Source of the DNA: Acholoe squamosa
Taxonomy: Eukaryota > Annelida > Polychaeta > Phyllodocida > Polynoidae
Reading direction: 5' to 3'
Assembly (NCBI GenBank): GCA_949317995.1
Contig: OX439045.1
Location: forward strand, 44,659,693 to 44,723,692
Length of the DNA: 64,000 nucleotides
Shown here in pieces: positions 7,763 to 62,665 of the stretch. Below the pieces are notes generated by a model. That model was not told the DNA's origin, searched no databases, and saw only the letters and a list, made by a program, of their open reading frames with translations. Position 1 is the stretch's first letter. The number at the start of each line of letters is the position of its first letter. Position numbers and translations under genes: made by a program.

Positions 7763-8225
7763 TGCTGACACCATTAGCTATGTTTGGCATGTTTTCCATT
7801 TATCCTTAGAACATGTCGCTATCCCTTGTTATTGAGACCTACCCTTCGATCCTTAGAGAAAAGGCCTTTTAACATAAGCGTCTGATCCTACATGAAACAA
7901 GAATTACCCATACCTCCAAAGGCTGAGGTATCGGTGATAAATATGCATGACAAAGAGGGGGCTTTGGCATTAACTCTTGATCAGAGGCAGTCAATCAAGA
8001 TGGAATAGTGGTTAAACTTGCGACATGCATCTTCATGTTTCTTAATTGTTCTAGCATTATTGTTTCATGAAGTCTTCTGTCTATAGCGAGGAGAGTAACT
8101 TAATAATTCAACGATGAAATGCGAATCTGCAAAGGCCTGGTTAAATCTAGATTGATCAAAGAAGGTAGTTCGATACCCTTTCCAACCTCCCAGACTATAC
8201 CAAAGACTCTAGAACCCGGCAATAT

Positions 8226-8447
8226 CCCAGCAAATTGTCGTGAGTCCTCGTCAACCTGTGTGAAGTGGCTCACACATGTCGCTAGATGGAACACAACGTC
8301 GTTATAGCACAAGATCACCAGGAATTGCAATGACTATGCCACGTGAGTCTAACACACAGTGGCGAAAGATGACTGAATGAGTTATCACTCAAAAAGGAGT
8401 CACCATTGATGACCAATCATGGTGACAGATGACGACAATTTGCTGGG
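8226..8447. mobile_element. Short non-autonomous DNA transposon (unexpanded form)
   Basis: A 222-bp element begins CCCAGCAAATTGTCGT and ends with its exact reverse complement. It is flanked by AT on both sides (8224-8225, 8448-8449), fitting a 2-bp target duplication. The interior holds about one unit of each tandem repeat found amplified in the 1.85-kb relative at 30052-31901. It encodes nothing and would need a transposase in trans. The 2-bp duplication suggests a CACTA/CMC-like family, but this is inferred. Confidence 0.85.
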
Positions 8448-9099
8448 ATCCAGCAATTTCAATGCTTTACCAAAACTTAATTGGTCATAGAAGTGGTTTA
8501 GGAGTGGTTAGGAATTGATGAATGCTTTCCGATTGACAACCATTCCCAGCTAGTCCTCTCCTCTAATTCCCTGGCCTACCTACTATGGGGTAGCATTCAG
8601 GTGGAACCAATCACAGAACAAGTTCACCCGAACTTTTGACAATGCAGTCTAAATCAGAGCAAGTCAATCAATCACAGTATAAGGTAGAAATCAGTCTGTC
8701 AGGTTGGAGAATTGCTGGGACCTGGACTTTGTACTGGCTACATTGAGAATTTAGTTCCCAATCTTTTCGCAACGGCCTCCTGAAGGGTAGGACTCTGGTA
8801 TCACTGGCTATGAGACATGGGTATGCTATATATGGACCATATGCCTGTCGTGATCCATTCCTCTACATACTCCCTCTACGTGTGGGGGCACAGAGGTGGC
8901 CTGTTGGGAAGGCTATGCATGGGATCACTGCGGACATGTGCCCGGCCCTCCTGGCTTTAACGTAATTTCCCTGAATATATTGAAGCCACATCCAAAGGCT
9001 GATCTGTGCGGCAATGTATTTCTAAACCAATAAGAACTGCCTAGCCCCACCTGCTCCATTTGTTCCCCTTTCCCATACAGCCACGCACCTTCTTCCACC

Positions 9100-14484: not shown

Positions 14485-14510
14485 GGCGATGACCTACTTT
14501 CAAGAACAAG

Positions 14511-16418
14511 ATGGAGGTCGAGGAGATCGTGCTGCTCGCGAACGCCACTATCGGTATTTTAGCTCTAGAGGAGGGAGACATCGATGTTATCCAAGGGGTG
14601 AAAAGGAAGCACAGGTACCATGCTGCACCCTACCTGAAGGACAGGACAGATGAGAGGCAAAGGAACACCTTCACCAAGCTCCATCGTGATCTGATAGCTG
14701 TAAGTATCTTGTATAATAAGGGCCCATCCATGTCGGAGGCAGACAGTGGGGAGGAGGGGGGGGGGTTAATCTTGAGCACAAATCGGTGATAAACTGTCCA
14801 GTAGACGGGTTATTATCCTTTTCTTCATGGACAGCCCCTGCATGGCAGGGGGGGGATGGCTCTTGTTCTGTTAATTTAGCTTTTCTCTTTTTTTCAGATG
14901 GGAGAGGACGCTGAATTCAAGCATACTTTGCGGATGGGGCCCGACTTGTACCACGAGCTGCTCGCCAAGGTCACCCCACTGATTTATCGGAGCGACACCA
15001 ACTTCAGGCCCTCTGTGAAGCCAGACGAGAGGTTGGACATAACCCTCCGATACCTTGCCTTAGGTAACTTGATATGTGTATTATCTGAGAGAGAGCATGT
15101 TTTATTCAATGTTGGTAAGGTTCAAATGAACCTCTCCCTTTTATTTTTATTAAAGCCGGAAAAAAAATAAAAGTCATCTTTATATAATTTAATATGTGCT
15201 TCAAAAACACTTATTTTTTTTTTTTTTGCAGGTGACAGCAGCCAGACACTCCACCATGGCCATCTGGTGGGCGGGTCTACGGTGTACCCTATTATCCGCG
15301 ACACGTGCATAGCTTTGACGGCTGTGTTGAGAGAAGAGTACATGAAGGTAAGTAAAAAAATAATTATTTCTTTCTTATAAAATAAAGACCTCGAGGAAAC
15401 TTTTTGGTTATGCTCCTGCTTGTCTATATAAAGTTCTTATCATTTTACAATAAAAAAAACAAAACTTATGGCCATCCAAGATGAAAAGATCTAAGATTTT
15501 TTTTAAATATTTTTGATGCAGGTACCTAGCACGAGGGAGGAATGGCTTGAGATAGCCGACGGCTACGCCAGTTCCTGGCAGGTGCCCCACTGCATAGGAT
15601 CTGTAGATGGTAAGCACATACGCATCAAGAAGCCAAAGAAGAGCGGGGCCACTTACTTCAACTATAAGAAGTTTTACAGCATCGTGCTGATGGCCGTCGT
15701 GGACGCTCAGTACAGGTTCCTTTACGTGGACGTGGGCTCTGAGGGGAAGGCTGGAGATTCCAGGATCTGGAAGGAAGGTCCCATGCACAGAGATATGAGT
15801 GACCCCACTAACCCCCTTCAGATTCCTCCAGCCTCTGGGATCAAAGGAATGAGGGACCTTTTGCCCTATTTCATGATCGGCGACGATGCTTTCGGGCTTT
15901 CTACCCATCTGATGAAGCCATACGCCGTCAAGGACCAAGGTATGAAACAGGTGGCATACAACTACAGGATGTCCAGGGGTCGTAGGTGTGTTGAGAATTC
16001 CTTCGGCATCTGGGTGACCAGATTTCGCCTCTTCCTGAGGCAACAGGACATGGAACCCAAAGGAGTCAAGATCCTAGTCATGGCCTCCCTTGCCCTTCAC
16101 AATTTTCTACGCACCCGATCCCCCTCTGAGTATATACCTCATGGGGCTGTAGATTATGAAGACAGGGAACACAACCTTCACCCAGGAGAGTGGAGAGAGG
16201 AAGGGGGCCTGGAAGGTCTAGACAGGGCGGCGGCACCTAGGAACATGCCTCAGGACGCCAAGACCATGCGCCATAGCCTGTGTGAATGGTTTTCATCCAG
16301 AGCCGGCCGGGTCCCATGGCAGGACCGATACCTGCGGAAAAGGTATGGGTATCTGTTTGAGAGAGAAGCTGCCAGGGAGGCTGGTCCAGATGATGTCCTG
16401 GACGAGGACAGTGAGTGA
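14511..16418 (+). CDS. PIF/Harbinger DDE transposase (nuclease), four exons
   Basis: Joined exons 14511-14699, 14898-15063, 15232-15347 and 15522-16418 keep frame and give 455 residues. All three introns are short with good GT-AG borders and T-rich acceptors. The protein should cut and rejoin the element's ends in the nucleus. The C-terminal DDE_Tnp_4 nuclease is clear: SVDGKHI (Asp186), VGSEGKAGDSRIW (Asp236), GDDAFGL (Asp278/279) and CVENSFGIWVTRFRLF (Glu315), with the usual YFNYKKFYS after the first Asp. The N-terminal 150 residues resemble the helical DNA-contact region of the family. Length is in the family range. No stop or frameshift interrupts it, so it may be functional. The start is the first ATG, just past the left subterminal repeats; an upstream non-coding exon cannot be excluded. 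A poly(A) signal AATAAA follows near 16993. Known: Harbinger nucleases usually need the second element protein. Inferred: the MADF protein opposite is that partner. Confidence 0.92.
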
Positions 16419-17235: not shown

Positions 17236-19411
17236 TTACTGTCCGTCCCATTCACCGTTCACAGCCTGCACGGCTGTCAGGTAAACATGGACCTTAAATT
17301 TGTCCTTGACCTTTTGGGTCATGCGTGCCATCTCCACCTCTAACATCTTGCACCACTGTGTGTCAGGAGAAACCTCCTTCTCAGGGGGGGGAGGATGGGC
17401 CTGAGCCTGGGTTCTGTTGCCCACTAAGGTCACAAGATCGTTCAAAGATTCCCCGTATGACTCATAAAACTTTTCTCTAGACTGGAGTATCTCTGAGACT
17501 GTCTTCTGTTTCTTTTCTCCAGCTTTAAGGTGTTGTGGCTCTCTCTTCTCCAGGTATTCTGCCTTGGCAGCTTCAGTAACCACATTTTTCTTTGGAATAT
17601 TGTAGTTAATAGTCTTACGTTTTTCACCACTGGTAGAAGGAACAGCACCTTTCTTAGAAGTTTTACCAGACCCCTTGCCCTTATCAAGAGAAGTCGGAGG
17701 AGCTGCATCTGATTTTGCAGACCCACCTGCAGAAGTGTTCTTTCTGTGGGGAGAAAACCTTGTCCTACTGGCGATGGAATCGTCGACGATCTCATCTCCA
17801 GACTCTGCTTCAGGATTGTAGTCCACATCCTTGACAGTGTCGTCTTCCTCCTCGTCGTTCACCTCAATCACCATCTCATCGGCCTCCTCGGATGGTTCCT
17901 CCAGGTGTTTGGGCCGTACGACCTCCTGCAGTGAAATAAATGGCTGAGTATCAAATAAAACAGAAAGAAATTTTCAGCCAGGTGTGTTGTTAAATATCAG
18001 GTAAAATCAGGAGCAGAATCGGTGAACTTAAAAATATTACATACAAATCGGGATGGAATCTATTAAACTTTTTAGACAGACAGAAATATTTAATGATTAC
18101 CTTTTTCTGTGGATAATTGGTGTCACTTTCAAGTTTCTTACACCATGGATCTAAGAACCCACACAGCCGTTTTATGAGGGCTTTCATGTAGGGGAGCTTC
18201 CCTTCTTCAGCAGATGACCCCGATTTAATTTTTCCAGACACGATTTTCTGGTAGTCCGATCTCAAAGACGTCTTACGGATGTTAATGAAGTAAGCTGAAA
18301 GAAAAGGGTTCTTTTTAATATCAGTAACAAAAAGATAAAAAGACTGTATTAAAAAAAATACATTCATATAAGAGTCTGTTACTAAAAACATTAAAAGATA
18401 GAATAAATAATTTTACTGCTATATTATACTCAGGTAGCAAAGACAACAGAAGAAAATACTGAAATTATTTTTACCTGGAATGTTGAGTTCATCCGAGATC
18501 TTAGCTAGAGCTGTCCATTTTGCAGTGGGGTCCTTGTACAAGGAGTGGCTCTTGTCATAAAGGTGGGTGCACTCCTGCCACAGCTCACACAATCGCTCCA
18601 GAACTTCTGGATCCTTGAAGAACTGCCTCCCGCTGCCAGCTGCTCCGGAAGGTTTCTTCTTAATTTCTCCTATAGTTTTTTTTGGGGTGACTACAGCCTG
18701 ACTGTCGTGGATGTCTGCTTCTTCACCCTCCTCACCATCGTCTCCCTGACCTTGACCTTCTTCTTCACTGTCGTCTTGGACCTGCTTGCTCCTACCAGAA
18801 AGGGTGTATGGAGGGGATTTAATACAGGCCTTCTTTGCAGGAGGGCCTGATGAACAGGAACTGTCTTGGGTTTTTTCTTGTAGGACCTTTTTCTGCTTCT
18901 TGGGAGGAGGTGGCGTCGGAGAACGAGGAGAAGGTGGAGGGCTGACTGACCTCTCCCCCTTTTCCATGTCGGGCAGTAGGTTACGCTTGGTACCCTTCTT
19001 GTTAAGGAGACGAGGCAGAGGACCTGAAGTACGGGCACAGGTGGACTCCTCCAACTTGTCAGGAGACACAGGAGTGGAAGATAGAAATGGTTCCTGTACA
19101 CTTAGGTCTAGTGCAGTGTCCTCTATAATGTCAATTTCATCGGAATCTTCGTCCACGACAGCCAGGTCTTTGGTAGTAGTATGTGTAGTACCGGTATTTT
19201 TTTTAGACATGGCCGTGCGAGCTTCTCCCAACTCATCTGGTGTCAAGTCGGGCAATCGAGCCTTACCTCTTGCAGAGAAACGTTTCGCTGGAGCCTTGGG
19301 TTCTTCCTGCGTCTCTATGACTACATCTGAACTGTCTTTTTTACTTCTAGGGGGTTTGAAACCCTTGTTTCCTCCCCTTCCCCGACGCCTCGAACCTGCT
19401 CTACCCGACAT
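17236..19411 (-). CDS. Harbinger second protein: MADF-domain DNA-binding protein, three exons
   Basis: Minus-strand exons 18475-19411, 18101-18294 and 17236-17925 join in frame to 606 residues; borders are GT-AG. Residues about 264-350 form a MADF (Myb/SANT-related) domain split by the first intron. It starts at FFKDPEVLERLCELWQ, followed by HLYDKSHSLYKD and KWTALAKISDELNIP, and continues in exon 2 with NIRKTSLRSDYQKI. The first 260 residues are low-complexity and charged (basic start rich in RGR, then acidic and Ser/Pro-rich), probably disordered with nuclear signals. The last 80 residues contain a helical segment (LEVEMARMTQKVKDKF) like a C-terminal oligomerisation motif. Known: Harbingers carry a second SANT/Myb-like protein that binds the ends and helps nuclear import of the nuclease. 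Inferred: this MADF protein has that role. It is convergent with the transposase and starts next to the right terminus. An upstream untranslated exon is possible. Confidence 0.85.
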
Positions 19412-19450
19412 CTTGTTTGTTTACGGCCAAAGCGAAGGTCACATGACTTG

Positions 19451-26838: not shown

Positions 26839-28290
26839 CCTACTAGAGGTTACCATACTAGAGGTGTCACCTATAGTAGCCATGACCATTTCACAATGAG
26901 CAATAGTACAGATAACGTTTTATACCTTTAGTAAGAGACACTACTATTTACTTGTAATCTTTTGCCTCTAGTAGATCATAAAGAAGTGAATAGAACAGAT
27001 GACCCAGGAGTAGCACGAAAATTTGGAAGAAAGATACAGAAATACCCTCTATAGAATCTTTCTACTAAATACCCTTGTTACTATAATATTTCACATAGAA
27101 GGCACACCTCATGTATAAGATGTAACCAGAGTTTGAGGAGAACCTATAGGCTTTTGACCATTTTGATACTGATCTAATAAATGATGCCCCTACCCATAAG
27201 ATGCACAGTCAGAGATTCTATAATGTGGAGGAAGGGCTTGATGGGGGTCGCCAATTTCCAATGTCGATTTTAAGAAATTCACATGTCACATATGTTGATT
27301 TACAGAAATGTCCATGTCATTGTGTCGATTTTAAGAAAATGCCATGTCCCCATGTCAATTTTAGAAAAATGCCACTGTCCCATGTCACTCTGCTCAAAAA
27401 TACCCATGTCGCTATGTCAATTTTAGGAGTCTAGAGCCATGCCTATGCTTGGGTATGTATAAGCTGCACCTTATAATATCTAGAGTATTACTTATATCAT
27501 GTTGGGTTCTTTGTTCCATTGGGGGGGGGCTACTTTGGGTTGATGGGGTAAGTTACAGTTGGCTCCTTGCAATGTCACTGGGTGGTTAGCTGTGGGGCAA
27601 TCTTTACCAACCATTAGAAGATTCCAATGATTTAACCCACAGAAAAAGACCTGGGCCACAGTTATCTTAATCTGTGGTGATTGCAAATGATTGAGATATT
27701 GTCACCTTACCCTACACACAAATATAAGGTCAATGTAGTTCATTGGTATGTTTGTCTGCAGAGGCATATCATATAGGAGCAATCAGTAAATTGTACCTGG
27801 TTCATGAAGTAAGTGCATATCCATTCTAGATGGCACCAAAGACTAATGAAATTATGCAAAAATCCCTTTGATTGGTAGATCATCTCAAGGAGCTCTACCA
27901 TCACACAAAATTACCTATATCTGTGTTTATGCAGTTATTTCAAATAAAGAAATTACCTTCTTAAGATAAGATGCCTCACACTAAATTTGCCACAAACAAT
28001 GTTTATGAAATACATAGACATGCACCTGAGATTATAAAACACCCATTACAGGAGATTGAGATGACCTCTGAGGATGTCTCAGCTAAGTGCAGCCATATGG
28101 GACCTACTAGAGGGAAGATGGCAAAGCATATAGTATAATGTTGTACTATTTACCTCTACTATAACATTGTGAAATGAGTAAAGTTCAGCCCTACTAGAGG
28201 CTCCAACTGTTATCTTTGCACTAAAGTTGGAGTCCTTCTGTTCAGCCATATTCTTCTACTAGAAATGCTAATCACCTCTAGTACTGACCT
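26839..28290. repeat. CTACTAGAGG-bounded repeat region, possible mobile element
   Basis: The word CCTACTAGAGG or its complement occurs at 26839, 26965, 28103, 28190 and, degenerate, 28275, in clusters at both edges. Both clusters contain CATTTCACAATG, in opposite orientation. This looks like a non-autonomous element with complex inverted subterminal repeats, around an interior that holds the 30-bp tandem array. Exact ends and target duplication were not found. Confidence 0.5.
27261..27432. repeat. 30-bp tandem repeat (ATGTCAATTTTAAGAAA family)
   Basis: Six units begin at 27261, 27292, 27322, 27352, 27382 and 27414, a period of 30-32 bp. Because 30 is a multiple of 3, the plus strand reads as a repeated 10-residue peptide, but there is no other sign of coding. 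The same unit occurs at 33.8 kb, so the array belongs to a dispersed family. Confidence 0.75.
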
Positions 28291-30051
28291 GAACCTATAG
28301 TTGGCTATCAAGAAACGCCACCCTGGTCTTGTTAGGACCAGTGTGGGTGCTAATAAGTACATACATATATATGTTGTCTGAAGAGTAAGATATTCTTTAC
28401 ACAATGCTTCTAGGCTCGTGTCCATATCAGGGTGCATACTCTACGTTATTTCTACAAGTGAGTTAATGCTTATCAGCTTTCTTCACGGCAAACCTAACCA
28501 AGTGCCTTTCCGGCAACAAAAGACACAAAACTATTCCCCATAGCGTTGCCCTTTTTTTTGTCTCAATATCACTCTGAAAAAATTCACCATGTTATTCTTC
28601 ATTCAATGCGTCCTTCAAAAGAGAACCCAGGGTTATGTTGCATTTAAGTGTCTGTTATTCTCTAGCATCTTTGGAAAAAAAAAGTCATTGTAACAGGCTT
28701 GATGTAAGGAACTGACCCCCCCCCCCAAAGTCGTCCTCTGCAAAAGGCTTGCCAAATTATAGGTCTCACTAAACGGCATTAAAAGTACAGTGGTGCCCTG
28801 TATTTTGCGGGTTAGGAGTTAAATTACATCTAAACATGTCACCAGCCTCTAAGAATAGGCGTTTTACTATGTAAACTAAACGTAGTAGGCATGAAAATTG
28901 CCTTCATGTCAAATCAAACCACACTGACTTAAAGCGGGCTTTGAAACTGGGCAGTGAAATGGAAATGGATGTCTTCTTATGAGGAAAGGTAAATTTACAG
29001 ACAGCAAATAGGACCCTGGGGGAAGATTTCTCAGTCATATGACAGACACATTGAATGACCTATTTGTAGGGAGAATCACCCACCAGGGAAGACATGTAAA
29101 ATAGCCATAGGAGTCTACAAAATGGAGTTTAGAGCGGTGAAGCCTTGTTGGAGCAGTAGTAGTGATAGCAGGTCTCTAGGCATGACTCACTACCCCAAAG
29201 ACCTGGTGAGTTCCTACTATACTCTGGAGGTTTGTAAGGTGGTCCCTCTTACAAGTGAACCTACCATCCAGTCAGGCAATCATGAAAAGCCCGGTCTTTT
29301 AAAGGTGAAAAGGGATGACTGGGCGTGTGGCCTCTGACGTTGGGTTGGCATCTCTTCAATCTTCCAATAGTACCTTTTTCAGATAGTGTAAAAGTACCTG
29401 CCTCTATTTCAGGAAGAATGCCGTTGTTGGTGGTGAAAACTTACTAGCAATGTAAGTACATTTTGCTTCAAGTCTGCCTTTGATAAATACCACCAGATGT
29501 ATCGGATTGTAACCTAAATTATTGCAAATTTACATTGGTAGGGTAAACAGGCAAACATCTGCACCAGACCTGACAGCCATTTTCTCTGACCAAATCGGGG
29601 GCCTATGCAGATCTATATGGATTGTACTCTCTGTATGTTTTTTTAGTCTATTGTCTTTCTGTTTTTCTTCTTACCTTAATTGAGGGTTCAGAGAAAAAAT
29701 GTGGCTTGAAACACTTGACAATATCGCAATTAGTGAAAATATTACTTCTCGGGATGCATCCCAGATCCTTATCGCAAGTTTACGTTGACTGGGACTTCTT
29801 GCCGATTCCTTCAAACATTTTAATATCCAAGCAGTCCTCCTAGAGAAAGAAGGTTCTATAAGGTGAAATTCGCTATACTTTGACAGGGACTGGCTTTATC
29901 TGCATGGCAACCCCTGACAACAAAATGGAATCGTGAGGGAATTATATTCCGTCACCATTTCAGAATTGTGACGGAATCGTGACTGACGGATAGGGTGACG
30001 GCAATGAAAGTGGGACTTTACGTCTATAGGAATCAATGGTGACGGAATCTC
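28291..30051. other. Non-coding stretch, no gene recognised
   Basis: A 10-bp inverted repeat (ATTCCGTCAC and complement, 29946-29977) and further GTGACGG words at 29960-30045 suggest another small repeat just beside the 30052 element. A poly-C run lies near 28719. Confidence 0.4.
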
Positions 30052-30110
30052 CCCAGCAGATTGTCGTGACTCCTCGTCAACCTGTGTGAAGTGGCTCACA
30101 CATGTCGCTA

Positions 30111-30790
30111 GATGGAACATGATGTCGCTATAGCACAAGATCACCAGGAATAGCAATGGTGGTGATCACATGGCCTCACCTCAGATAGCGAGGATGGTGA
30201 TCACTCAGACTCACCAGGGATGGCGACGCGGGTGATCACTCACCTCGCCAGATGAAACACGCACCTCGTCATAGCACATGTTCACCAGGGATGGCGAGGA
30301 TCGTGATCACTCATCCTCACCAGGGATGGCGACATGAGTGATCACTCATCCTCACCAGGGATGGCGACATGAGTGATCACTCACTTCGCTAGATGAGACG
30401 CACACCACGTCATAATGCACATTCACCACGGATGGCAAGGATTGTGATCAGTCACCTCGCTAGATAAAACGCGTACCTCGTGATAGCACAGGTTCACCAC
30501 AGATGGTGAGATTCTTGATCACCCACACTCACCAGGGATGGCAACACGAGTGATCACTCACCTGGCTAGATGAAACGCACACCATGCCATAGCGCATGTT
30601 CACCACGGTTGGCGAGGATCGTGATGACTCACACTCACCAGGGATGGCAAGGCGGTTGATCACTCACCTCGCTAGATGAAACGCGCACCACGTCATAGCG
30701 CAGGTTCACCATGGATGGCGATAGTGGTGGTCACCCAGACTCACCAGTGATGGCGACCCTGGTGATCACTCACCTTGTTAGATGAAAAGC
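30111..30790. repeat. Internal tandem array 1 of the 30052 element
   Basis: Seven units marked by GCTAGATGAAAC-like starts at 30111, 30251, 30392, 30473, 30569, 30675 and 30781; spacing is 81-141 bp and settles at 106 bp. Each unit contains one or more CACCAGGGATGGCGA and GTGATCACTCACC sub-repeats. TGATCA palindromes recur throughout. Confidence 0.85.
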
Positions 30791-31160
30791 TCATGATCAT
30801 CGACATTGGTAATCATGCAGCCTCACATATGCCAGATCAAAGTATGTTTTGCCAGAGAAGGTATTGCCATATGTATCTTCTCTCTAACCACAGACAAGGT
30901 GTTCCTGTTGATATTTCCTTATGTATTTTTCCTGTAACCAGAGAAAAGGTGTTTATGGATAGTTGCTTTCATTTTAGAGATACCTCTATCTAAATTCAAT
31001 TGATATTCTCTCTATATAATCTTGTTTGATTCAACTCTGACATATTACATGGAAATCAGTGTGAAACAAAGCACAATTGATACATATGGGACTTATACTT
31101 CATGCCCACACTTCCTAGATAGGCTACATGTTGAACAGTGGTGCTGTCTCAACAACTTTG

Positions 31161-31835
31161 GCAATGGTGGTGATAAGTTGCCACTGTGAGTGAGAGCGAG
31201 TGACAGATGATGCAATCCTCAGAGAGCATTGACTTGGAGTGACACAAATTCACGTATTGAGTGAGACCAATGTTGGCAATGGTGGTGATAAGTCGCCATT
31301 TTGAGAGATTAACTAGGAGTGATACAAACTCACGCAGTGAGTGAGAGCCAGGTGGCAATGCAGGTGAAAAGTTGCGATTCTGAATGAGAGTTGACAAACA
31401 GTGGCACATATTGACAGAGTGAGTGAGATCCATGTTGGCAATGGTGGTGATAAGCTGCCATTCTGAGTGAGAGTTGACTGGGAGTGGCGCATAATCACGC
31501 AGGGAGTGAGGTCCATATTAGCGATATTGGTGATAAGTCGCCATTCTGAGTGAGAACTGACTGGGAGTGGCACATAATCACACAATGAGTCAGATCCATG
31601 TTGGCGATGGTTGGGATAAGCCGCCATTCTGACTAAGAGTTGACAGGCAGTGGCACATACTCACGCAGTGAGTTAGATCCTGTTGGCGACTGTTGTGATA
31701 AATCGCCATGCTTTGTGAGGGATGACAAGGGGTGGCACATACTCACGCAGTGAGTGAGATCATGTTGGTGACTGTTGTGATAAATCGCCATGCCATGTGA
31801 GACTGACACACAGTTGCAAAAGATGACGCAGTGAG
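31161..31835. repeat. Internal tandem array 2 of the 30052 element
   Basis: Eight units marked by GGCAATGGTGGTGATAAG-like starts at 31161, 31276, 31355, 31438, 31521, 31604, 31686 and 31768. After the first, spacing is a steady 79-83 bp. The last unit runs into the conserved right end of the element. The 8226 copy holds only the terminal part of one such unit. Confidence 0.85.
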
Positions 31836-32179
31836 TTATAACTCAGAAAGGAGTCACCATTGATGACCAATCATGGTGACAGATAACGACAATTTGCTGG
31901 GTCATACTTTACTGACAGGGACACATGATTATCCATGTAGAAACACTGTGGTGTTTATCGAAAAATAAACCATTTCTGTGATGTAGGCATGTTAGCAAAT
32001 GGTAGTGCTACCCTTAGGCATTTTGTCACATCTCACGGCATTTCCTTCATCTAGAATGTAACTTTTCCCACTGTTTACTGTTAAGAGACTGTGGTCCCAA
32101 GAGGAAACGATGGACCCCCTCAAGTTGTTCTGCTGATATAACTAAAACAATAGCTACAACGTGTGCACGTGTTAAGTCA

Positions 32180-59559: not shown

Positions 59560-60286
59560 AAATCTACAATGTCAAAGACTTAATAGAAGCTTTCAATCAG
59601 CTGCAAGAAAGGGTCATAGAGCTCGAGTCTGAACATGAACAACCTGCGTTAAATGTCACAAAAGACACAGGTGATGCCTCTAACCTAACTACAAGATAAG
59701 GTACAGTAGAAAAAGATTCTCGTACTACCTCTGAAATACTTGAAAAAATTATGCAAAGGCAAGATGTGGTACAACCTATGGCAAACGATAGTGACACTTT
59801 GGTAAAATCACTCCAGACAAAAGTCAACAGTCTGGAGGATTCTGTTTCTAACGCCAATTCTCTTGCTAAACACTTGTTGAACACCAATCAGAAATTTGAA
59901 GAGGAAGACAGAAAGAAAACGTTGATCATGGAAGGTTTTCCAGAAATTTCTCGAGAAGACCTAACGCAAATCTGTGACCAACTTTTTCACGACCTAACTC
60001 TCAAATATGGTAATGAACGTGTAGATAGTATATATATAGGCTTGGCAAGTATGACCAGAACCAACAAAAACCAAGGGCTATCATCTTCAAATTGTCTAAT
60101 CGAGGCATTAAAGCTGATGTATACAGAAAAATCAGCAATCTCAAGGACGTACCGGCATGGAAGGGGGTCTCTCTGCTAGATGACCTTACCAAGAAGGAGG
60201 CCAGAGAGTATCATGACCTAGAAGCTCTCTATTTCTTAGCCAAGAGATGGGGGGTTCGAGATAATTACTATAGTATATTGAGCTAA
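59560..60286 (+). pseudogene. LINE ORF1 (L1-type RNA-binding protein), broken
   Basis: The reading frame begins before 59580 and continues through one in-frame TAA near 59697. It gives a coiled-coil-like stretch (DTLVKSLQTKVNSLEDSVSN) and then an RRM-like start (RKKTLIMEGFPE, then RVDSIYIGLA). A frameshift at about 60065-60100 moves the rest (AIIFKLSNRGIKADVYRKI, DLTKKEAREYHDL) to another frame. The order coiled coil, RRM, C-terminal domain is that of L1 ORF1p, an RNA chaperone that coats the element's transcript. It cannot make a full protein. Such ORF1s also occur in some CR1-group elements. Confidence 0.75.
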
Positions 60287-60399
60287 TATCATCATAGCCA
60301 ATTCTTGCAACACAAATTGGTAGCGACAGCCATAAAGGCATCAGTCTACTACCCTATATATCCACAGTTCCTTTGCATATATAGTAGTCATACTTTATT

Positions 60400-62665
60400 A
60401 TGAATGGTTATTCTCTGTACCGGTTAGATCGACAAAGAGACAAAGAAGCGGGCGGAGTATGTGCTTTTATTCATGATAATATATCTTGTGGTGACTTGAT
60501 ATATAGAAATCTTAATGTTAGCAATATTGATATTGAGACAGTGATCACCTACCAGTATATGTCATTTTAAATAGGCCCTCTTGCAAAATAAATGAGAGAA
60601 ATTTTAAGGGTCCATCATATAACAATTTCAATGATGAATTGTTTGTGAAATGATTCAAATATCTCTCTTGGTAACAATTTGACAATTTTGAAAGCATTGA
60701 ACAATGTTGGAAAGTGTTTGAAAACAACACCAATGTTATTTTAGATATATTGTGTCCAATTTTAATATCCGTTTTAAAGAAGACCCATGGCTAACCCCTG
60801 GACTTATTGCTGAAATTATTACAAAAAAACAACGCATTAAAAAAGGCTAAGAGAACAAATACCATTTTAGACTGGGATCTAGCAAGAACCCCAAAAAAAT
60901 AGATGTTCATCCAACTTAAAAAAAAGCCAAACAAGACTTTGTGGTTGATGAAATCACTAATAACATAAAATATTCAAGAAAGTTCTGGGCAGCCCTGAAA
61001 AAGATTAAAAAAGGACATTCATTTGGTAAATGTACCGATGTAAACAATTCTGACTCAGCGGATTTTATCAATGGTTTCTTCGCTAATATCGGACCTAATC
61101 TAGGAAAAAGAAATGTTGAATGGACTTTCAAAGGAACTGAATGTCATGAATAGATGCCTGAAATAGTTATATCAGAGGAAGATGTTATTTCAGCGGTGAA
61201 AAAGCTTAATTCTAGCAAAAGTTCTTTTTTAACCCATATATCTACCCATGTTTTTAAACTAGCTGTTCTAGCTCAAGTAACTCGTTTTACAAGACCATTG
61301 AATATTGCTGAAAGTTATATACCTGTATCATGGTAATCAGCCAAGGTCACTCCACTACCGAAAGGGGGGAATTAAAGAATGTTTTAAATTAAAGGCCCAT
61401 TAGTCAATTACCAATTCCTGGAAAAATCTTAGAAAGAATAATCCACACTGATTTAGACAAGCATCGTGATCAAGATAACATCTTGTCAAAATTTCATGGG
61501 GGTTATCGGAAAAATAGATCAACGATAGATACCATATCAATATTAACTGATGATATTCTAAGAAATAGGAATAAAGGTCATGTGACCTTGGATGGTTTCA
61601 TCGATACAAAGAAAGCTTTTGATTGTTGTAACCACCCACATTATATTATTGAAAACAAAAAACGCTGGAGAAATATGGAGTAAGAGGGAAAAAAACTCTA
61701 ACTGTAATAGCTAATGATATTATTTATAGTTCTCTTTCAATTATTTGTGGTGTGCCACAGGGTAGTATTTTAGGCCCTTACCGTTTTTAAATTATATAAA
61801 TGACGTTTTAGAAAATGAAACAAATATTAAGGTTTTATTATGCAGAAGATACAGTTGTTTACACCAGTGGCAAAACTGTTAATGGCACAATACCAGTACT
61901 ATAAAATGGTCTAAATAGATGTGCCGTATTGTCTGCATCAAACAAGGTAACAATGAATGAAAGTACAAAAAAGAAATAATAGCTTTTACCTCTGACATCA
62001 AATATAAAAAAAATAGAACCCTATTATTGTCAACGGAAAGACTCCAACTTCTAAATATTTGGGTGTTATTCTAGATAATGACCTGAACTTTAAAGCACAT
62101 TTTCGAGAATTGAAAAAATCTGTAATCTATAAAACTTTTCTATTGTACAAACTTTGATCTTTCGTACCAAGTGAAATACTGCTACGTATTTTTAAAACCT
62201 ATGTTGTACCGGTAATTGACTATGCTGATGTTATCTACGCTGGTGCTTCTAATACGGTACTTGCTGAATTGCAAACATTACAAAATAGATGCATCAAACA
62301 TTGTCTGAAAATGCCAGTAATGACATCTACGGATTTTATCCACCAGGAATCTAAACTTCCATATCTTGAATATAGACAGGAAAATCATTTAAGAGTGATG
62401 ACTTTTAAATTATCAAAAAAGCCGGAATATTTAAAAAAATATGATTAGGAACACACGGTTGAATAATGCTCCTATTCTATATTTATATGAAAGGTCAAAT
62501 TTAAAAGCATATGATAGATCTGTTGAATACTTGACGAGTCACATCTGGAATGCATTACCCATAGACTTAAGAAATCTCGATGAGGTTGATCAGTTCAAAA
62601 ATAAAAGTAAGGAAATTATGTGCAATACCATCCCAAAAGATGCCATCAATATTTATGCAGCGTGA
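60400..62665 (+). pseudogene. LINE ORF2 (endonuclease and reverse transcriptase), broken
   Basis: The endonuclease tail is visible as YRLDRQRDKEAGGVCAFIHD near 60420-60475. A linker follows (EDPWLTPGLIAEIITKK style, then KFWAALKKIKKG). Reverse transcriptase blocks come next: LNSSKSS, GKILERIIHTDLDKH, GGYRKNRSTIDTI, then FIDTKKAFDCCNH (first catalytic Asp) near 61600, CGVPQGSILGP near 61750, and YAEDTVVY near 61840. In the last the usual YADD reads YAED, so a catalytic Asp is lost. KYLGVILDNDLNFKAH and a C-terminal IWNALPIDLRNL follow. At least seven stops or frame changes interrupt it. In a live element this enzyme nicks the target and copies RNA into DNA; this copy is dead. Confidence 0.85.

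Follow-up and report, generated by a model that had tools for sequence, protein, structure and literature searches.

A non-autonomous DNA transposon with two internal minisatellite arrays, and its array-less short relative, in the polynoid annelid Acholoe squamosa

The 64,000 nucleotides of Acholoe squamosa DNA analysed here (GenBank assembly GCA_949317995.1, contig OX439045.1, positions 44,659,693–44,723,692 of the forward strand; below, the window) contain a 1850-bp and a 222-bp sequence that begin and end alike, the longer of which holds two tandem arrays. A preliminary description took them for copies of one DNA transposon in which two minisatellites had been amplified independently. The locus therefore raises the question of whether the arrays grew inside the element, how they change from copy to copy, and what part the element plays in spreading them.

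Two forms of one transposon family

The features of the two window copies are as follows.

30052–31901, + strand: long non-autonomous DNA transposon copy, 1850 bp; both ends common to genome copies, with terminal inverted repeats (TIRs) and a 2-bp target duplication (TSD)
30050–30051, unstranded: left copy of the TSD (TC) of the long element, in its flank
31902–31903, unstranded: right copy of the same TSD (TC)
30052–30067, + strand: left TIR, 16 bp; the family form, CCCAGCAAATTGTCGT, is exact in 35 of 38 copies
31886–31901, − strand: right TIR, 16 bp; exact in 20 of the first 26 copies
30105–30158, + strand: outermost left B+A half-unit, retained also in the 222-bp form
30141–30793, + strand: left array of 35-bp modules, 13 A and 5 B plus a partial B (Tandem Repeats Finder and module matching)
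30862–30953, + strand: two-copy 50-bp tandem duplication in the middle region between the arrays (copies 30862–30903 and 30912–30953)
31170–31228, + strand: degenerate start of the right array
31229–31836, + strand: right array, 7 units of 80–83 bp (31229–31802) and a 34-bp partial unit (Tandem Repeats Finder)
8226–8447, + strand: 222-bp array-less form (MITE) of the same family, sharing the 16-bp ends
8224–8225, unstranded: left copy of the TSD (AT) of the short element, in its flank
8448–8449, unstranded: right copy of the same TSD (AT)

The proposal that the two copies share both ends was borne out: their coordinates were exact, and the 16-bp inverted ends of both are CCCAGCARATTGTCGT, base 8 of the left TIR being G in the long window copy, a departure from the family form. 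The likeness does not stop at the terminal 16 bp, as it would between otherwise unrelated sequences. The short copy aligns with 107 bp at the left end and 112 bp at the right end of the long one, at 93.5% and 90.2% identity, over 219 of its own 222 bp. Elsewhere in the window the 16-bp end was matched only at four single sites, with 4 mismatches each.

We then searched the 1.48-Gb assembly (63 contigs) with the left end, the middle and the 222-bp form. This gave 623, 872 and 1509 first-look candidates, respectively, numbers that are loose and overlapping, as the left-end and 222-bp queries share the left end and the short query can also match long-copy ends. The scored places were the best 40 per query, all 97–100% identical to the query; those of the short form all matched over 222/222 positions. 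All of the best 40 of the 623 left-end places were read, the window included, and these yielded one 218-bp copy and 37 long copies in which both ends are present. The 218-bp copy and one long copy are extra copies met in the flanks of sampled places; in one of the 37, L148, the ends were paired via the terminal repeat alone. Four left-end places lacked an end pair (L152, L189, L190 and L195); the right ends of L189 and L190 are altered, and L195 has no right end within the stretch examined. The middle sample consists of 8 of its best 40 places. All copies were thus sampled as best matches to the window sequence, and older, more divergent ones lie outside the sample.

A 2-bp TSD borders 33 of the 38 copies of the left-end sample, all eight of the middle sample and 18 of 21 short copies, whereas pairing the left flank of one copy with the right flank of another gave agreement in 65 of 650 combinations (first 26 copies). 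A 3-bp match was found in just 1 of the 38. The duplicated dinucleotides among 22 copies were TT, TA, TC, CA, AT, AA, AG, AC, CG and TG. The 16-bp TIR and the TSD of fixed length are those of a TIR DNA transposon, as had been claimed. No two of 59 copies (the 38 and the 21 short ones; the eight middle-sample copies stood outside this check) have flanks that are alike at ≥80% over 20 bp on a side, and we therefore regard the 59 as separate insertions. Counted over two lists of best 40 each, the short form's joint is present at at least 74 distinct places (6 shared between lists) and long-form sequence at at least 78 (2 shared); both numbers are lower bounds and give no ratio of the two forms.

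Neither a transposase nor an autonomous copy was found among the copies examined. No open stretch in the long copies exceeds 147 codons, and the two array open reading frames of the window copy had no Pfam match. L148 and L152 had seemed to be longer coding copies; the first proved to be a 1184-bp copy with its right array nearly deleted and the second to be truncated, and a Pfam scan of 10 of the 15 open reading frames listed for the two gave no match. In L148 (201–1384, reverse strand) the deletion takes in nearly all of the right array and the right subterminal region, to about 21–23 bp from the end, and the matching TC duplication is kept.

The ends likewise offered no ready assignment. 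Tc1/mariner elements duplicate TA, and the mixed TSD sequences rule them out. ISL2EU elements, described in part of PMC4482050 as having an AT duplication and ends usually starting GG, are ruled out by the mixed TSDs and by ends starting CCC. The EnSpm/CACTA and CMC clade, for which an excerpt of PMC12730594 gives mostly CA..TG or CAC..GTG ends and a 2–5-bp TSD, fits in TSD length but, judged by the CCC..GGG ends, does not match. A foldback element was rejected as well, since the TIR is just 16 bp and the two arrays are not inverted copies (see below). We conclude that CCC ends with a 2-bp TSD of no fixed sequence fit none of the superfamilies tested. In prokaryote contigs the 16-bp end occurred in at least 118 stretches and in viral contigs in 15; none of these 133 loci has both ends, and we took them as chance matches. 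A longer end pattern had no match in viral contigs, and a comparison of the end strings with the literature returned a 12-mer in two unrelated papers.

The window holds other repeats. A Harbinger-like transposon occupies positions 14493–16418 and 17236–19420, with a DDE_Tnp_4 match at 15507–16418 (+ strand, E 3.7e-23); two long − strand open frames near it had no Pfam match. Retrotransposon remains lie at 59700–62448 (RVT_1 match at 61393–61683, E 1.6e-07), and the two frames neighbouring the RVT_1 frame gave no match. A small minisatellite of about 4 copies of a ~30-bp unit is found at 27261–27425. The left flank of the long copy (29930–30050) contains several clustered GTGACGG motifs, perhaps another repeat family, and has no second copy within the window. 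Both flanks of the short copy (within 7926–8747) contain, away from the element, a 37-column direct similarity with a score of 17, reached in 0 of 200 shuffles. Neither Rfam, at its gathering threshold, nor a tRNA search produced a match in the window.

Two arrays and their states

The left array had been described as seven units of about 106 bp. An array is indeed present, but its unit is a module of 35 bp, in two kinds, A (34–35 bp) and B (37 bp), ordered A3 B A3 B A B A2 B A2 B A2 and ending in a partial B. The 106-bp length (A-A-B) is the commonest higher-order period, with 5.8 copies. The modules score 22–32 matches against the two module patterns, compared with 20 for the best of 50 shuffles. 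For the right array, said to hold eight units of about 82 bp, the array again stood and the count did not: there are 7 full units, the partial unit and the degenerate start. Tandem Repeats Finder scored the two arrays at 547 (106-bp period) and 538 (83-bp period). The 222-bp copy, thought to have about one unit of each, has about half a unit of each instead.

Comparison of the left and right unit consensus sequences revealed a short direct motif in common, the score of which was reached in 5 of 1000 shuffles. An inverted relation between them was not found, its score being reached in 107 of 1000 shuffles, and the idea that the arrays are inverted relatives of one another is therefore unsupported. 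For the whole left and right parts, direct and inverted scores were reached in 14 and 76 of 300 shuffles, respectively. From these comparisons we regard the two as different arrays that may have a motif in common. In folding predictions for single-stranded DNA, the left array did better than its shuffles (z −5.6) and the right array did not (z −0.9; 20 shuffles each).

The 37 long copies range from 1184 to 2213 bp in length and display 24 distinct array states, defined by the left-module string and the right-unit number. There are 11–26 left modules and 1–9 right units per copy, counting the terminal right unit as one, and so both numbers vary, as the preliminary description had expected of an element-driven process. 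This variation sits between ends that are closely alike. The mean difference between ends (88 bp each) was 2.2% among the first 25 copies, where of 208 pairs that are at most 3% apart in their ends, 192 differ in their arrays.

Within a copy, by contrast, units have diverged widely. Right units differ by 33% within a copy, compared with 3.7% for the same type between copies; for left modules the values are 25% and 4.7% (first 25 copies; types a and b are omitted from the 4.7%). We conclude that the arrays are old, because divergence among the units of one copy far exceeds that of a given unit from copy to copy.

Were these states generated at each locus after insertion? Ordinary minisatellite instability, with the element as a passive carrier, is the strongest competing explanation, although we rate it at somewhat less than an even chance. 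It is in keeping with the 20 of 37 copies whose state was seen once, and with the chimeric units and block duplications described below, which unequal exchange or slippage anywhere would yield. Against it, the other 17 copies share five recurring states, and these sit at loci with unrelated flanks; those array changes therefore preceded transposition. The middle sample points the same way, since the 1499-, 1604- and 1854-bp states return in it and three loci share a 1625–1626-bp state. Left and right repeat counts also correlate (Spearman 0.63), which fits inherited subfamilies. For the states seen singly, the change may predate or follow insertion. The suggestion that the element is a route for spreading minisatellites is thus upheld in this sense: the arrays move as cargo, and five of their states have reached unrelated loci.

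Loss and gain of units

The right units can be followed individually. We sorted them into types by clustering (average linkage, cut at 11%; L150 was typed differently in two runs), with the typing anchored 9 bases into each unit, so that the final b comprises the partial unit and the right end. The window copy reads edgifcab. In 36 of 37 copies, and in 15 of 16 distinct codes, the code can be obtained from h j d g i f c a b by omissions alone, where e and o are counted as fusions, k and m as alleles of i and l as an allele of j, where n and untyped units are left out, and where one- and two-unit codes (e, _b) fit any order trivially. The sole exception, L150, carries a local near-identical duplication.

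The two fusions are chimeric units. Type e agrees with h over the first 12 informative sites and with j over the following 10, without exception; type o matches h at 8 sites and then c at 10. A weaker case is the d of edcab arrays, which follows the d of full arrays at 16 sites before switching to f for 3. Of the 14 copies concerned, 11 have all three f sites, L154 and L156 have two and L143 has none, and the full-array copies L145 and L150 (2/6) are partly f-like at these sites too. The switch in e is also noisier when judged against L185's own h and j, with exceptions on both sides. A scan of type triples gave 6 clean switches in 1716, e and o among them. Of the four others, one repeats the e event with o in place of h, and the remaining three (i, f and m) may be older exchanges or chance.

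The undeleted order is present in two copies, L145 (hjdgkfcab) and L185 (hjdgifcab), and L185, which was obtained after the e chimera had been recognised, carries the undeleted form that e implies. We also considered the reverse, in which e would be ancestral and h and j its duplicates. In that case the differences should spread over both halves of the unit, and they do not. The step from h-j to e is therefore most readily understood as a deletion produced by exchange within aligned units. Judged by the unit codes, then, the visible change in the right array of this sample appears to be mainly loss of old units, by blocks. The exchange part of the earlier proposal of repeated unequal exchange or slippage thus finds backing in the chimeric units; the growth part does not, as the right array mainly loses units.

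Gains were nevertheless found. Near-identical tandem duplications occur in three of the 37 long copies, two in left arrays and the third at the start of a right array. That of L145 is 249 bp long at a spacing of 281 bp, with one mismatch between exact stretches of 174 and 74 bp; in L151, exact repeats of 96 and 62 bp lie at spacings of 190 and 285, respectively, and in L150 one of 90 bp lies at a spacing of 115. In the remaining long copies of the 37 there were no exact repeats of 60 bp or more at spacings of 30–699 bp. With these near-identical duplications the left array grows as well as shrinks: it both gains and loses modules.

A further possibility is that array change is coupled to transposition itself, for example through template-guided repair of the excision gap, which would produce block deletions and duplications in both arrays. 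Such coupling seems improbable to us, and the preliminary description's view that array change is tied to the element finds no support as far as a link to transposition itself is concerned. If it were true, the family would be a transposition-driven maker and spreader of new minisatellite alleles, and the 222-bp MITE would be an extreme product of the same process.

Origin of the short form and meaning of the family

The 222-bp form is short, non-coding, multiplied and uniform in length, with TIR and TSD, and is on these grounds a MITE. Between a consensus of 21 short copies and one of the ends of 25 long copies, 102 of 107 and 105 of 112 sites agree. Short copies lie 1.0% from their own consensus and the ends of long copies 1.1–1.4% from theirs, distances that are lower bounds of age, both samples being best matches. 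The joint of the MITE consensus, ATAGCAATTGCTAT, is a 14-bp palindrome, which may record the sealing of an internal deletion.

The left half-unit of the MITE is 92.6% like the outermost unit of the long form. Its likeness to five inner units of the window copy is 68–82%, and that of the outermost long unit to the same five is only 66–78%. From this pattern of likeness the arrays seem to be older than the split between short and long forms, and the short form seems to be a deletion derivative. It is therefore best read as a separate, uniform MITE derived by internal deletion from an array-bearing ancestor, and not, as had been supposed, as an unexpanded one-unit form. Because this array-less form has multiplied, the arrays seem dispensable for transposition.

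Dispensability bears on the proposal that the arrays are subterminal transposase-binding arrays under selection, which we regard as unlikely. The arrays do adjoin the ends, their unit consensus sequences have the direct motif in common, and the repeats of Galileo have been proposed as secondary binding sites (parts of PMC3573991 and PMC4079207). Against this, the array-less form is known from at least 74 places compared with at least 78 for the long form, the arrays have no inverted relation to one another, and L148 keeps its TSD with the right array almost gone, although that loss could be later than insertion.

The opposite polarity would make the 222-bp form the ancestor and have both arrays expand out of its single units once the long lineage had separated; we consider this very improbable. 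The short form does hold a piece of the outermost unit of each array and is itself well multiplied. The left half-unit values given above speak against this polarity. In bootstraps the short copy lay closer to the outermost unit than did any inner unit in 1994 of 2000 replicates on the left and in 1975 of 2000 on the right, a reading that assumes that inner units evolve no faster; the right test is weak, as the outermost piece is short and 43–49% different from the inner units. FastTree support for the pairing was 0.71 on the left, in a tree that lacks one B module (30563), and 0.98 on the right. That the array lengths are assembly artefacts is hardly credible: tandem repeats are prone to collapse and the lengths are known here from the assembly alone, yet units within one copy differ by a third on average and are hence distinguishable, the same states occur at unrelated loci, and both chimeric units and the undeleted form they imply are present.

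We therefore favour, with a probability of about 0.8, a non-autonomous cut-and-paste transposon with two old arrays, dispersed in set states, with a right array that is mainly deleting and a MITE derived from it. Two internal arrays of different sequence, one beside each end, travel with the element, and the transposase would presumably come from an autonomous partner. In the copies read, the right array changes mainly by deletion through in-register exchange between neighbouring diverged units, which leaves chimeric units behind; the route, as for minisatellites in general, would presumably be unequal recombination, single-strand annealing or replication slippage. Array states would become fixed in source copies and then be amplified by transposition. 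The 222-bp form would have arisen through loss of both arrays and the middle, and then become a uniform MITE.

Non-autonomous DNA transposons with internal tandem repeats are already well known. Pearl elements, going by their descriptions, carry one core array, compared with two here. Two arrays in one element, which had been called unusual, have a precedent: Galileo, of the P superfamily, has tandem repeats in its inverted ends, near both ends of the element, and the repeat number is constant neither from copy to copy nor from one end of a copy to the other (PMC3573991 and PMC4168063). It has long inverted repeats and a 7- or 8-bp TSD, however (part of PMC4168063), as opposed to 16 and 2 bp in the present family. 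Tetris/DAIBAM of the Drosophila virilis group is similar in its variable internal tandem repeats, in a shorter MITE that shares its ends and in a transposase source that, according to an excerpt of PMC4079207, was not found there either; the TIR-220 repeats of Tetris lie inside long inverted repeats, whereas our TIR is 16 bp and the arrays differ in sequence. In Xenopus tropicalis, miDNA4 is a MITE whose internal tandem array varies in its number of units, but it is of Tc1/mariner type with one satellite described (PMC12628747, PMC9659126), and the present family has mixed 2-bp TSDs and two arrays. The bivalve pearl family (CvA, DTC84) resembles it in being modular and non-autonomous, with short internal arrays of up to six monomers (part of PMC5139131). 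Muta1 and other Aedes MULEs also have subterminal tandem repeats and non-autonomous derivatives, though with 9–15-bp units inside long inverted repeats and an 8- to 9-bp TSD (part of PMC5225508), and a bacterial MITE with a minisatellite is on record (PMC4596501).

What is distinctive here is the pair of unlike arrays beside 16-bp ends, the CCC ends with a 2-bp TSD, and a history that can be read unit by unit; the same anatomy was not found in titles and abstracts of the open-licence literature. One element disperses two arrays genome-wide, and a close, well-multiplied relative has neither. Many independent insertions with individually typable units thereby provide parallel records of minisatellite change, in which gains, losses and breakpoints are readable per copy and datable against the copy's own ends.
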